A stretch of DNA of 64,000 bases. It comes from Prochlorococcus sp. AG-418-M08 (GTDB taxonomy: Bacteria; Cyanobacteriota; Cyanobacteriia; PCC-6307; Cyanobiaceae). The stretch covers positions 73,769 through 137,768 of the forward strand of contig QCMG01000003.1 of NCBI GenBank assembly GCA_003213955.1. Reading direction: 5' to 3'. This document shows positions 27,099 to 46,504 of the stretch, in pieces; the first letter of the stretch is position 1, and every line of letters begins with the position of its first letter. A model generated the notes under the pieces. That model saw nothing but the letters and a program-made list of their open reading frames with translations. It had not been told where the DNA came from and searched no databases. The position numbers and the translations under genes are program-made.

Positions 27099-27197
27099 AT
27101 GAACAACCCTTTACTAATAATTAATATTCATCACGTTACACAGGGTGGACTTACTAGAGTTAATTTGTCATTATTAAACCAACAAATTAATTCTTAA
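27099..27197 (+). CDS. Possible 32-codon leader ORF coupled to murA
   Basis: ATG at 27099, 32 codons, TAA at 27195-27197 overlapping the murA ATG by one base (TAATG). The peptide starts MNNPLLIINIHHVTQGG. The stop/start overlap would let ribosomes reinitiate at murA, so it could be a leader peptide. It has no recognised family, and it may be a chance ORF. Confidence 0.3.
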   Translation: MNNPLLIINIHHVTQGGLTRVNLSLLNQQINS

Positions 27198-28570
27198 TGG
27201 TTTGCGAAGGCAACAAGAAGTCATATCTTAAATCCCAAAATTTAAAGATAATTGGCCGAAGTTCCTTAAGAGGGGAAGTAAAAATAAGTGGTGCAAAGAA
27301 TTCAGCTTTAGTATTGCTTGCCGCATCATTACTAACTGACGAAAAAATAAAATTAGATAACGTTCCTCTGCTAACAGATATTGAGAAAATGTGTAATATC
27401 CTAAAGAATTTAGGGGTTAAGTTACAAACTAAAGATCATCAATTAATCATTGATTCAACGAATATATCAATAAAAGAACTTCCATATGAACTTGTAAATG
27501 GATTAAGAGCTAGTTTTTTTTGTATTGGAGCATTATTAACAAGATTTGGAGAGGCTTCAATACCTTTACCAGGTGGTTGCAATATTGGTAAAAGACCAAT
27601 TAACGAGCATATAAGTGGGCTAAAGGCACTTGGTGCCGAAATTATTATTGAAAAAGAGATCGTCAAGGCAAAACTAGCAGAAAATAAAAATAGACTACAC
27701 GGCTCAAATATTAGATTAAATTGTCCAAGTGTTGGAGCTACTGAAACCTTAATAATGGCAGCATCCTTAGCACAAGGTCGAACTGTCATAGAAAATGCTG
27801 CAAGGGAACCTGAAATTCAAGATTTATGTCAGATGTTAAATAAAATGGGAGCTAAAATTTATGACTCTGGCAAAGAAAAAATAATTATTGATGGAGTGCA
27901 AGACCTTCATGGTTGTTCTCATAAAGTAATTCCTGACAGAATAGAAGCTGGAACTTTTTTAATAGCTGCAGCTGCAACTTCCTCTTCAATTACAGTTTCC
28001 CCAGTAATCCCAAATCACTTGGAAGCAGTATTAAATAAGCTAGAGGAAAGTGGTAGTAAAATAACCACAAAAGGAAATTCGATTTCAATAAGAGGTAATA
28101 ATATCAAAGCTGTAAATATAGAAACTGCTCCATTCCCAGGTTTTCCTACAGACTTACAGGCTCCATTCATGGCTCTAATGACTATTGCTAAAGGTAGGTC
28201 TACAATCTCTGAAACAATTTTTGAAAACAGAATGAATCATGTTGAGCTTCTTAATCAAATGGGGAGTTCCATAACCGTTGAAAATAATGTAGCTCGTATA
28301 AATGGAGTTAAGAAATTAAAAGGAATGACATTGGCTGGAGCAGATTTAAGATCATCTGCTGCTCTTATAATTGCAGCACTAATATCTAGAAGAGTTAGTC
28401 ACATTTATGGGCTTGAACATTTAGATAGAGGTTATGAAAATTTTGAATTAAAGCTCTCACAATTAGGTGCTCAAATTAAAAGAGAAACAAATAGAAAAAT
28501 TAATTCACATTCATATTATGAGGGTAATAAATTAGCAAAAGATAGTTTGGCGAAAATTAAAGTAGCTTAG
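27197..28570 (+). CDS. murA: UDP-N-acetylglucosamine 1-carboxyvinyltransferase
   Basis: First committed step of peptidoglycan synthesis; transfers enolpyruvate from PEP to UDP-GlcNAc. 457 residues, two-domain EPSP-synthase fold. The active-site Lys is in SGAKNSALVLL and the fosfomycin-sensitive Cys is present in PLPGGCNIGKRPINEH. The C-terminal tail after LSQLGAQIKR is about 30 residues longer than in E. coli and poor in pattern. The ATG start is supported by an N-terminus (SLRGEVKISGAKNS) at the expected distance. Confidence 0.96.
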   Translation: MVCEGNKKSYLKSQNLKIIGRSSLRGEVKISGAKNSALVLLAASLLTDEKIKLDNVPLLTDIEKMCNILKNLGVKLQTKDHQLIIDSTNISIKELPYELVNGLRASFFCIGALLTRFGEASIPLPGGCNIGKRPINEHISGLKALGAEIIIEKEIVKAKLAENKNRLHGSNIRLNCPSVGATETLIMAASLAQGRTVIENAAREPEIQDLCQMLNKMGAKIYDSGKEKIIIDGVQDLHGCSHKVIPDRIEAGTFLIAAAATSSSITVSPVIPNHLEAVLNKLEESGSKITTKGNSISIRGNNIKAVNIETAPFPGFPTDLQAPFMALMTIAKGRSTISETIFENRMNHVELLNQMGSSITVENNVARINGVKKLKGMTLAGADLRSSAALIIAALISRRVSHIYGLEHLDRGYENFELKLSQLGAQIKRETNRKINSHSYYEGNKLAKDSLAKIKVA

Positions 28571-28580
28571 TTCTTTTCTA

Positions 28581-28691
28581 TTAAACATAAGCTACATTAA
28601 TCAGTGAAATACAACCAATGAATAAAAGAGATAAAATTAAAAAACGAATAGACCAATATTTATTTAACCCGTTAATATCTGAATAATTCAT
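28581..28691 (-). CDS. Tiny membrane protein, 36 aa, coupled to the upstream ORF
   Basis: ATG at 28691, TAA at 28581-28583. The peptide MNYSDINGLNKYWSIRF is followed by one transmembrane helix (LILSLLFIGCISLINVAYV). The start overlaps the stop of the neighbouring tiny ORF by 4 bases (ATGA), a layout that argues for real, coupled genes. Size and topology resemble small photosystem or cytochrome subunits, but I cannot match a known one. Confidence 0.45.
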   Translation of the reverse strand: MNYSDINGLNKYWSIRFLILSLLFIGCISLINVAYV

Positions 28692-28807
28692 ACCCATGTC
28701 CCATTATTAGAACCAAAAGCAGTGAAAATAGCTACCGCAATGAAGAGATAAGGAGCTAATTTGAAAGATAATTTTTGTGCTTTATTATCAATTTTCGTAT
28801 TTGCCAT
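28688..28807 (-). CDS. Tiny membrane protein, 39 aa
   Basis: ATG at 28807 to TGA at 28688-28690. A polar N-terminus (MANTKIDNKAQKLSFK) precedes a single hydrophobic helix (LAPYLFIAVAIFTAFG) and a short SNNGTWV tail. Codon use is normal. It and the following 36-aa ORF form a pair convergent with murA. Not recognised; a possible thylakoid or inner-membrane accessory peptide. Confidence 0.5.
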   Translation of the reverse strand: MANTKIDNKAQKLSFKLAPYLFIAVAIFTAFGSNNGTWV

Positions 28808-29085
28808 AATATTTTGTTAATTACTAAGAAATATAACACAATATGACTATCTGTAAAGCTTAATTCTTAAATTTCTCTTAAAAAGCCTTTTAAAGATACA
28901 TAATTGTATCAGTACTGTTAAATATAATGAGATTTTTGTAAAATTGTCTATTGAATGTCTTTAATTTAAGATCTTTTTTATGTACTATTTGTATTCTCTC
29001 AGACTACTTTCCATAAAGTAAGGAAAGTAGTCAATGCATGAATTATGATTATAATGAAAAAAGTTCTTTATTCGTGAAAAGCCTT
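28808..29085. other. Noncoding stretch before tRNA-Leu
   Basis: No credible ORF. It is AT-rich and contains the strong inverted repeat at 29002-29032. It should hold the promoter of the tiny membrane-protein pair on one side and that of tRNA-Leu/argD on the other, but no convincing -10/-35 set can be assigned by eye. Confidence 0.6.
29002..29032. repeat. Perfect 11-bp inverted repeat upstream of tRNA-Leu
   Basis: GACTACTTTCC (29002-29012) and GGAAAGTAGTC (29022-29032) are exact complements around a 9-nt loop. No T run follows on either strand, so it is not a classic terminator. It ends 53 bp before the tRNA. Confidence 0.7.
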
Positions 29086-29167
29086 GGGAGCGTGGTGGAA
29101 TTGGTAGACGCACCGCACTCAAAATGCGGCACCTTCGGGTATGTCGGTTCAAGTCCGACCGCTCCCA
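29086..29167 (+). tRNA. trnL-CAA: tRNA-Leu (anticodon CAA)
   Basis: Acceptor GGGAGCG (29086-29092) pairs with CGCTCCC (29160-29166), discriminator A at 29167. The anticodon loop CTCAAAA sits between CGCA and TGCG arms, giving CAA. A variable arm (GGCACCTTCGGGTATGT area) and T-loop TTCAAGT are present, as in class II tRNAs. CCA is not encoded. argD starts 5 nt after its 3' end. Confidence 0.95.
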
Positions 29168-29172
29168 CTTTA

Positions 29173-30348
29173 ATGAATACTTATACTCGATTTGATATAT
29201 CTTTCAAAAAAGGTAAAGGTTGTTGGCTCTGGGATCAGAAAGGGAAAAAATATCTTGACGCAGTTTCTGGTATAGCAACATGCAGTCTTGGGCATAGCGA
29301 TAGAATTTTGAGAAAAAAATTATCTGCTCAGTTGAAAAAAGTTCAACACATATCTAATCTTTATAAAATTGAAGAGCAGGAAATATTAAGCAAATATCTG
29401 ACCAAACAAAGTTGCGCTGAAAGTGTTTTTTTCTGTAATAGTGGTGCCGAGGCAAATGAGTCAGCAATTAAATTAATAAAAAAGCATGGTAATACAGCTC
29501 ATGCAGGTAAAGAGTGTTTTATTCTTGCTGCCGAATCTAGCTTTCACGGCAGAACACTTGCAACTTTAAGTGCTACCGGCCAGCCCAAATACCAAAAAGG
29601 TTTTGAGCCAATGGTTAAAGGCTTTAAATTTTTCAAGTATAACGATATTGCTTCAGTAAAAAAATTATTTAAGGAATTTAAAAATAATGACCAAAAAGTT
29701 TCTGGAATTTTAATTGAGCCTATTCAAGGAGAAGGGGGTGTAATACCTGGAGAAAAAATATTTTTCAAAGAATTAAGAGAAATTTGTAATCAAAATAATT
29801 CTCTTTTAATTCTTGATGAAGTTCAGAGTGGAGTAGGAAGAACGGGCAAAATGTGGGGTTACGAGAATCTAGAAATCGAGCCTGATGGATTCACTTTAGC
29901 TAAAGGATTAGGCGGAGGACATGCAATTGGTGCTTTATTAGTTCAAAAAAAAGCCAACATTTTTTCCCCAGGAGATCACGCAAGTACTTTTGGCGGAAAC
30001 CCCTTTGCTTGTAGAGCTGCGTTAACTGTTTTAGAAGAAATTTCAAGACGAAAGATTCTTAATAACGTTTTTGAAAGAGGTAATCAATTAAAATGTGGTT
30101 TTACAAAAATTTCAGCAAAATTTCCTAATATTATTAATGGCACAAGAGGATTAGGATTAATACAAGGTCTTGTTATAAATGACACCTACACTGATGCAAA
30201 AACAATTACATTAAAAGCTTTTGATAAAGGTTTACTTCTAGTCCCTGCCGGAGGAAATGTGGTTAGGTTTGTTCCACCATTGATAATTTCGAGAAATGAA
30301 ATAAATATCCTTTTAAAGAAGTTAAATTTAATTTTTGAAGAGCTTTAA
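29173..30348 (+). CDS. argD: Acetylornithine aminotransferase
   Basis: PLP enzyme of arginine synthesis, 391 residues. The frame is open through the tRNA-Leu gene, so the true start is the ATG at 29173 just after it. Motifs include NSGAEANESAIKL, ESSFHGRTLATLSATG, ILDEVQSGVGRTG and the PLP lysine in FTLAKGLGGG. The C-terminal domain ends GGNVVRFVPPLIISRNEI. folC follows after 12 bp. Confidence 0.94.
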   Translation: MNTYTRFDISFKKGKGCWLWDQKGKKYLDAVSGIATCSLGHSDRILRKKLSAQLKKVQHISNLYKIEEQEILSKYLTKQSCAESVFFCNSGAEANESAIKLIKKHGNTAHAGKECFILAAESSFHGRTLATLSATGQPKYQKGFEPMVKGFKFFKYNDIASVKKLFKEFKNNDQKVSGILIEPIQGEGGVIPGEKIFFKELREICNQNNSLLILDEVQSGVGRTGKMWGYENLEIEPDGFTLAKGLGGGHAIGALLVQKKANIFSPGDHASTFGGNPFACRAALTVLEEISRRKILNNVFERGNQLKCGFTKISAKFPNIINGTRGLGLIQGLVINDTYTDAKTITLKAFDKGLLLVPAGGNVVRFVPPLIISRNEINILLKKLNLIFEEL

Positions 30349-35907: not shown

Positions 35908-36975
35908 ATGGTAGAAAAAGAAAAAAAATGTATTGGAATAATTTTTGGGGGTAATTCAAATGAACATTATGTATCAATATCTTCAGCAAAAACAGTTTAT
36001 AAAGCCCTAATTTCTAAAGCAAACAATGAAAGATTCAGAGTCCAGGCTTTTTACATTAATAAGCATGGAGTGTGGTTTGATAATGATCAATCTCTTGAAA
36101 TATTAGAAGAAAATAATGGAAATGATTTAACTAATAATTATCAAATATTACAAAAAGGGAGAATAAACTTTCTAAACAATATTGAATTCCAAAGTATTGA
36201 TATATGGTTCCCCTTATTGCATGGTTTAAACGGAGAAGATGGTGCTATTCATGGATTATTGAAATTTACACAGAAACCTTTGGTTGGGGGTGGGATTTTA
36301 GGGTCTGCTCTTGGAATGGATAAAATATTGATGAAAAAAATCTTCTCACATCTAGCAATTCCACAAGTAAATTACTTAGCTATACAAAATTATGATCTAA
36401 GTAATAACAATATTAAAAATAGTTTATCTATTGAAATTATTGAAAAATTAAATTTACCAGTTTTTGTAAAACCTGCTAATTCAGGTTCTTCACTGGGAAT
36501 TTCTAAAGCCAAAAATAAATCAGAAATAATTAAAGCTTTACAAAAGGCTTGGGCAGTAGACTCAAGAATTGTTATCGAGGAAGGTTTAGATGTAAGAGAA
36601 CTTGAATGCGGAATAATCGGTAATTTAAAACTTTCAACATCTGAAATTGGAGAAGTCTCCTATGAGACAGATTGGTACGATTATGATACAAAATATTTAA
36701 TGGATAACAATATAAAAATTCCGGCTGATATTGATTCTAAAATATCTGAACAAATTAAAGATATCGCTATTAGAAGTTGTAGAGCATTAAATATTTATGG
36801 TTTTGCAAGGGTAGATTTCTTTTTAGAAAAGATTTCAAATAAAATCTTTTTGAATGAAATAAATACAATCCCTGGTTTTACAAGTAAAAGCATGTTTCCC
36901 ATGCTTTGGAAAGCTTCAGGTTTAAATATTGATCAACTTGTGGCTAAACTAGTTGATATATCCCTAGATTCATAG
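35908..36975 (+). CDS. ddl: D-alanine-D-alanine ligase
   Basis: ATP-grasp enzyme of 355 residues supplying the peptidoglycan dipeptide. It has GIIFGGNSNEHYVSISSA at the N-terminus, the LPVFVKPANSGSSLGISK ATP lysine loop, the YDTKYL omega loop and FLNEINTIPGFTSKSMFP metal/substrate site. It begins a ddl, unknown, ftsQ, ftsZ order that mirrors a reduced division and cell wall cluster. Confidence 0.96.
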   Translation: MVEKEKKCIGIIFGGNSNEHYVSISSAKTVYKALISKANNERFRVQAFYINKHGVWFDNDQSLEILEENNGNDLTNNYQILQKGRINFLNNIEFQSIDIWFPLLHGLNGEDGAIHGLLKFTQKPLVGGGILGSALGMDKILMKKIFSHLAIPQVNYLAIQNYDLSNNNIKNSLSIEIIEKLNLPVFVKPANSGSSLGISKAKNKSEIIKALQKAWAVDSRIVIEEGLDVRELECGIIGNLKLSTSEIGEVSYETDWYDYDTKYLMDNNIKIPADIDSKISEQIKDIAIRSCRALNIYGFARVDFFLEKISNKIFLNEINTIPGFTSKSMFPMLWKASGLNIDQLVAKLVDISLDS

Positions 36976-46204: not shown

Positions 46205-46261
46205 ATTCAAATTCAATGAAATTTGTTTAAAATCATTATTATTAACAAAAAGACACTTTAC

Positions 46262-46504
46262 ATGACAGAAGAAAATTCTCCTGAAAAAAATCCAAATGAA
46301 GATTTAGATAATAAATCTACTTACAGTCAATATTCCAAGTGGGTTGATAATCAAGGAGATGATGTAAAGAATGTTTTTGGATTTAATAGTAGTGCAGAAC
46401 TTGTTAACGGCAGAGCAGCCATGATCGGATTTCTTATGCTTATATTGACAGAATTAGTTTTTAGAGGGAGACCTGTGACTTCCTCAATATTTGGTATAAA
46501 TTAA
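46262..46504 (+). CDS. hli: High-light-inducible protein (Hli/Scp)
   Basis: The ATG at 46262 gives 80 residues; a TTG at 46223 adds 13 unsupported ones. A polar, acidic N-terminus precedes the one-helix chlorophyll-binding motif SSAELVNGRAAMIGFLMLIL, with the conserved E, N, R. Such proteins bind chlorophyll and carotenoid in photoprotection. 2 bp from the following 70-aa gene. Confidence 0.93.
   Translation: MTEENSPEKNPNEDLDNKSTYSQYSKWVDNQGDDVKNVFGFNSSAELVNGRAAMIGFLMLILTELVFRGRPVTSSIFGIN

Follow-up and report, generated by a model that had tools for sequence, protein, structure and literature searches.

An overlapping pair of microprotein genes opposite murA in Prochlorococcus carries an hli-type promoter

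Hlip/SCP proteins, which are encoded by the hli genes and belong to the PF00504 family, are tiny proteins with a single membrane helix and an E..NGR.AM core. Psb34 and the small photosystem or cytochrome subunits also resemble the gene pair described here in their size and single helix. In Synechocystis, the hli and scp promoters controlled by HLR1 and RpaB are induced by high light. Passages of one study place the HLR1 of scp genes over the -10 element and describe RpaB as holding HLR1 in the core promoter at low light (PMC6331805). A further precedent comes from Prochlorococcus MED4, where a 2008 study describes PMED4_14671 as a small ORF in the opposite 3' UTR of PMED4_14661 (PMM1300) that rises 14-fold upon an increase in light while PMM1300 stays at its basal level (PMC2518516).

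The window that was analyzed is a stretch of 64,000 nt from Prochlorococcus sp. AG-418-M08 (contig QCMG01000003.1, positions 73,769-137,768, forward strand). Two small ORFs occur on its minus strand. ORF1 (28688-28807) encodes 39 amino acids with a basic N-terminus, one predicted membrane helix and a conserved C-terminal G-T-W, and it has one copy in the home genome. ORF2 (28581-28691) encodes 36 amino acids when counted from the ATG within the ATGA, with a conserved GLN..WS.RF at its N-terminus and one predicted membrane helix that reaches the C-terminus. An in-frame ATG at 28697, two codons further up, is an alternative start that would lengthen ORF2 to 38 amino acids. The two frames meet in an ATGA overlap (28688-28691, minus strand), where TGA ends ORF1 and ATG opens ORF2. 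This arrangement is flanked by a convergent murA (27197-28570, plus strand; TIGR01072, 534.6 bits with a cut-off of 392.7) and, on the other side, by a divergent tRNA-Leu(caa) (29086-29168, plus strand) and argD (29173-30348, plus strand; TIGR00707, 454.4 bits with a cut-off of 410.05). The best 19-residue Kyte-Doolittle means are 1.83 for ORF1 and 2.41 for ORF2. AlphaFold predicts one helix for each protein (residues 8-36 of ORF1 with a mean pLDDT of 72.7, and residues 4-35 of ORF2 with 83.6), at low pTM values of 0.37 and 0.42, respectively. A single membrane helix is thus predicted for both proteins, as is typical of the Hlip/SCP family. Nowhere else in the window do two small hydrophobic ORFs share an ATGA, and none of 20 Markov-1 simulated windows contained such a pair.

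Both ORFs are real genes under purifying selection equal to that on murA. A DNA search gave matches in 33 of 60 genomes, and the more distant ones conserve positions 319-520 of the query, which are window positions 28782-28581 and cover both ORFs. Among 98 distinct loci, in a survey that left out L061-L070 and identical copies, the overlap is ATGA in 97 and ATAA in one. ORF2 has 36 amino acids in 96 of these loci, 34 in one and 38 in one; its exceptions are a frameshift (L018) and the absence of the last two residues at two loci of one genome (L003 and L042). The length of ORF1 is 35 amino acids in 73 loci, 39 in 22, and 34 and 32 in one each, and one locus (L052) is without a suitable ATG. 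A murA gene was identified at 96 loci and is convergent at every one of them, with 1-46 nt between the stops. Five ORF1 residues are invariant among 24 sequences (F22, T29, G36, T37 and W38), as are 13 columns in an ORF2 alignment of 23 sequences. The dN/dS ratio is 0.158 for ORF1 and 0.173 for ORF2 (90 distinct full-length sequences), and murA at these loci has 0.158; close pairs give 0.143, 0.117 and 0.140. Third codon positions hold 0.62 of the differences in ORF1 and 0.57 of those in ORF2.

These results bear out the sequence-only reading, which had proposed a pair of tiny coupled membrane proteins and had named frame and overlap conservation in relatives and a bias of substitutions toward synonymous sites as the ways to check it. 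The conserved stop/start overlap suggests that the two ORFs are translationally coupled. They could conceivably be chance frames within a conserved non-coding RNA, since Prochlorococcus ncRNAs with small ORFs are described in passages of PMC2518516. The codon-position bias and the dN/dS ratios make this explanation practically negligible, and at the gathering score Rfam finds only the tRNA here; its two below-threshold matches are in argD and on the tRNA.

The region upstream of ORF1 contains a strongly conserved block, gCTTCAC..AGTAATATTGTGTTATATT, and a two-block module consisting of ACA-N4-TG and then an extended -10, TGTTAYATT. In the window, the extended -10 is TGTTATATT (28830-28838, minus strand), which is conserved and has the same form in hli leaders. 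A -35-like TTTACA (28852-28857, minus strand) lies in the conserved region and was located by a consensus scan in which chance sites of this kind are not uncommon. The upstream element TGATACA-N4-TGTATC (28895-28911, minus strand) has its center 67 nt upstream of where the -10 hexamer begins and also occurs in hli leaders. The whole module common to hli genes (28830-28918, minus strand) is the sole exact match in the window, where 0.04 would be expected. Generic promoter-like sites are only slightly enriched in the region (8 versus 4.7 in shuffled sequences, sd 1.9).

Of 96 pair loci, 82 have the center of TGATACA-N4-TGT at a distance of 66-68 nt upstream of the -10 hexamer. At several of the remaining loci the scan picked a second copy of the element 11 nt further up, and the upstream element may therefore be an 11-bp repeat. 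The strict two-block pattern is present in 86 of the 96 loci and is missed by the pair of genome G069. By itself the upstream element is unspecific, with 100-125 matches per genome at two mismatches compared with 47-72 for a reversed control, and the -10/spacer block by itself gives few extra matches. The second-best match to the upstream element in the window (36672-36691, plus strand; score 14.1) is not accompanied by the two-block module.

Three element sites from two other genomes, selected by visual inspection, each lie next to an hli gene; a fourth stretch that was opened, from the wrong genome (L240), has neither a listed element site nor an hli gene. Sites with at most one mismatch adjoin hli genes in 2 of 6 cases in G069 and 2 of 7 in G078. 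A matrix trained on the pair sites only was tested on 23 leaders of clear hli genes from G015, G069 and the home genome, which were hand-chosen from the stronger of 55 hli matches with operon members merged. Sixteen of these leaders have a match at p < 0.05 relative to 257 background windows. A score above 10 within 400 nt occurs in 15 of the 23 versus 1 of 79 control promoters (Fisher p = 2e-11), and the single control promoter that reaches this score does so through the pair's own element. Mononucleotide-shuffled hli leaders score above 10 in 24 of 460 cases. Eight hli leaders do not reach this score, and one match from the 257-window test (L293), about 600 nt away, is not among the 15. The element is carried by none of the 11 genes tested from 15 weak hli-like matches. 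One weak hli-like match lies in the window itself at 46238-46450 on the plus strand (G000:C3:120006-120218, E = 1.4e-6).

Exact searches of five whole genomes for the complete module, in two spellings, returned 12 and 9 rows, or 21 rows at 20 distinct places, compared with 4 and 0 rows for a reversed-pattern control in the same genomes. Sixteen of the 20 places are hli leaders and four are leaders of this pair, with no other kind of gene represented, and at 18 of the 21 loci the first ORF begins 17-27 nt downstream of the -10. G015 contributes two nearly identical leaders to these hli leaders, and it carries two nearly identical copies of a four-gene hli operon together with the promoter (G015:C1:773068-773913 and 1344942-1345787). 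All four hli proteins that were tested match PF00504, one above the cut-off and three below it. The promoter of the pair is therefore an hli-type two-block promoter, and this sharing offers indirect support for a role of the pair in the thylakoid. Five hli leaders (L311, L314, L316, L320 and L322) begin with a 35-amino-acid Hlip ORF and have a second Hlip ORF 107 nt after its start, a spacing at which stop and start overlap by 1 nt, which closely resembles the way the two ORFs of the pair are joined. The open-licence literature yielded no title that deals with this pair or, in Prochlorococcus, with this promoter.

One component of the promoter may differ between the two kinds of gene. An HLR1-like repeat, in a pattern worded after viewing the hli leaders and the scpB site, lies over the -10 of all 16 hli leaders with 0-2 mismatches, as reported for the scp genes, and shows 2-5 mismatches at 95 pair loci. 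The clear feature of the pair is instead its upstream element with 11-bp spacing. Since the HLR1-like site seems degraded in the pair, its control may differ from that of the hli genes: it shares with them the -35, the spacer, the -10 and the upstream element, while its RpaB lock may be incomplete.

Despite this regulatory kinship, the pair is not an Hlip by sequence. The E..NGR.AM core is absent from the ORF1 and ORF2 alignments, and neither protein has a Pfam match. More broadly, there is no credible match for the pair in Pfam, NCBIfam, PHROGs, PADLOC or PDB sequences; one search gave two chance matches (E = 0.46 and 2.1) and another gave none. Known small subunits of the photosystems, cytochrome b6f or NDH likewise give no credible match in Pfam, NCBIfam or PDB sequences, and no sequence match to Psb34 was found. 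The resemblance to small photosystem or cytochrome subunits that had been suggested from the sequence thus holds for size and does not extend to a sequence match.

The pair might still be a decayed hli pair that kept the promoter and the two-ORF layout and lost the chlorophyll-binding motif. The shared promoter is consistent with such an origin, as is the occurrence of two tiny ORFs with a 1-nt overlap at the opening of several hli leaders. Profile comparisons of ORF1 and ORF2 with Hlips by hhalign return probabilities of just 0.4% and 0.7%, although profiles this short have little power, and with the core motif in neither alignment we consider decay from hli genes quite unlikely.

Searches for relatives outside the genus were similarly unproductive. 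ORF2 matches in 399 genomes of the order all have E values of 0.02 or worse outside the genus, and profiles run against a selection of 70 genomes, 61 of them from other genera, covered part of the order and found no convincing relatives. A 15-residue ORF1-like match recurs in seven genomes of genus g26 (E = 2e-4 to 1e-3), but the loci that were opened have other neighbors, no GTW end and no promoter module, and it was rejected; at one of them (L152:1462-1581) the stretch KLVPYIFIAVAIFSE is held within a 39-amino-acid frame. ORF2-profile matches in G149, within a 130-amino-acid frame, and in G478 (E = 3e-4 and 9e-4) were taken as chance. Neither pattern-based scans of IMG/VR nor a search of 50,697 phage records found the pair in viruses. 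These results bear on whether the two peptides, with their small size and one helix each, could be a membrane toxin pair of a type I-like kind. This is extremely improbable for a locus that is fixed in position, near-universal in good genomes, single-copy for ORF1 and low in dN/dS; it has no phage or PADLOC match, Rfam adds no RNA beyond the tRNA, and none of the marks of type I toxin-antitoxin systems (a described antitoxin RNA, a known family, or a patchy or phage-borne distribution) was found.

The pair is found widely in its genus. Among the 266 genomes examined from this Prochlorococcus genus, 206 carry ORF1, as do 78 of the 87 good ones. Named genomes were scanned as well, which confirmed 165 places; the 80 that were kept have Prochlorococcus titles, MIT 9314 among them, or, in three cases, titles of uncultured Synechococcaceae. 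With neighborhoods judged from ORF starts, the pair is absent between murA and the tRNA or argD in four of four genomes of the same genus that were chosen for lacking ORF1 (G162, G149, G079 and G081). Among 21 genomes of other genera, 19 have an argD-type gene after murA and lack the pair in between; of the other two, one contig ends at this point and one genome has different neighbors. A search for murA found it in 25 of 30 genomes. Five further genomes without the pair (G023, G207, G271, G026 and G020) also miss a murA match, and both absences there probably reflect an assembly gap. Three genomes of other genera (G289, G314 and G293) have two murA-like genes, of which only one is beside argD (L201/L216, L203/L217 and L199/L218, respectively).

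A quick murA tree, which includes one misread row (L205), places G149, G079 and G081 outside the pair-bearing genomes and G162 inside. In a careful tree without this row, G162 is still inside and the other three are unplaced. The pattern is likely to reflect one gain of the pair and a later loss in G162.

The corresponding locus in genome G015, which we take to be MED4, has the order murA, ORF2, ORF1 and argD (L004). PMM1301 of MED4 is named as an ornithine transaminase candidate in a passage of PMC2242806. Given this gene order and an ornithine-transaminase-type PMM1301, PMM1300 should be murA and PMED4_14671 should be one or both of the ORFs, in which case it would map to G015:1252488-1252708 on the minus strand. 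PMED4_14671 is thus very probably part of the pair, by gene order, and if so then the pair is light-induced like the HLR1/RpaB-controlled genes. The claim that such genes are unannotated consequently stands only in part, since a light-induced member very probably entered the literature in 2008. The locus names could be traced in the open-licence literature to PMC2518516 and PMC2242806 only, and the relevant passages of PMC2518516 describe no coupled second ORF, no conservation and no such promoter; the hli-type promoter of the pair is new here.

The convergent arrangement also raises the question of whether the transcript itself is the functional product. As an antisense device, it would enter murA from the 3' end and curb cell-wall synthesis in strong light, with the proteins being secondary. 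The 1-46 nt between the stops would permit this, and an overlap of the transcripts in MED4 is reported in PMC2518516. The same passages have PMM1300 at its basal level as PMED4_14671 rose, and selection acts on the protein frames, which together make an antisense function highly improbable.

The explanation that we favor, with a probability of roughly 0.6, is that ORF1 and ORF2 form a coupled, high-light-induced operon of single-helix microproteins that is part of the hli regulon and probably acts beside Hlips in the photosynthetic membrane. Because it shares its promoter with the hli genes, the pair is probably an overlooked part of how these cells cope with strong light. In strong light, a response regulator acting at the upstream element with its 11-bp repeat would switch the promoter on, and in the hli genes the HLR1-like site over the -10 would also take part. 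One transcript would carry both ORFs, and ribosomes that end ORF1 could restart on ORF2 at the ATGA to give matched amounts of the two proteins. Both would insert with the basic N-terminus inside and could partner on a photosynthetic membrane complex or on repair intermediates beside Hlips, presumably acting without the chlorophyll-binding motif of the latter. Several observations weigh against this explanation: the apparent degradation of the HLR1-like site, the eight hli leaders that do not score above 10, the tested weak hli-like genes that lack the element, and the absence of the pair from four or more genomes of the genus. Nor did the searches connect either protein with a photosynthetic one, by structure or by sequence.

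Tuning transporters is a role of many tiny membrane proteins. The pair could be induced by high light yet work away from photosynthesis, on a transporter or the cytoplasmic membrane for instance, having taken over its promoter from an hli gene. The missing homology to photosynthetic proteins agrees with this alternative, which is nonetheless unlikely because the exact module otherwise occurs at hli genes only.

A bolder form of the photosynthetic explanation may be offered tentatively, as somewhat less probable than its opposite. The pair could be a new, non-Hlip two-subunit module for high-light protection that was gained when the lineage moved into bright surface water. The two proteins would form an obligate heteromer and associate with Hlips or with repair intermediates of photosystem II, and besides the hli genes the pair alone would make strict use of the hli promoter. 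Although Prochlorococcus has streamlined genomes, the high-light genus retains both microproteins under a constraint like that on murA, and in the five genomes searched the pair is wired with the hli genes alone. Given this constraint and this wiring, the pair is a concrete candidate for a clade-specific adaptation to high light in a phototroph that is dominant in the ocean. Proteins as small as ORF1 and ORF2 can be missed by routine proteomics as well as by annotation, and the promoter module provides a compact signature for listing members of the hli regulon in other high-light genomes.
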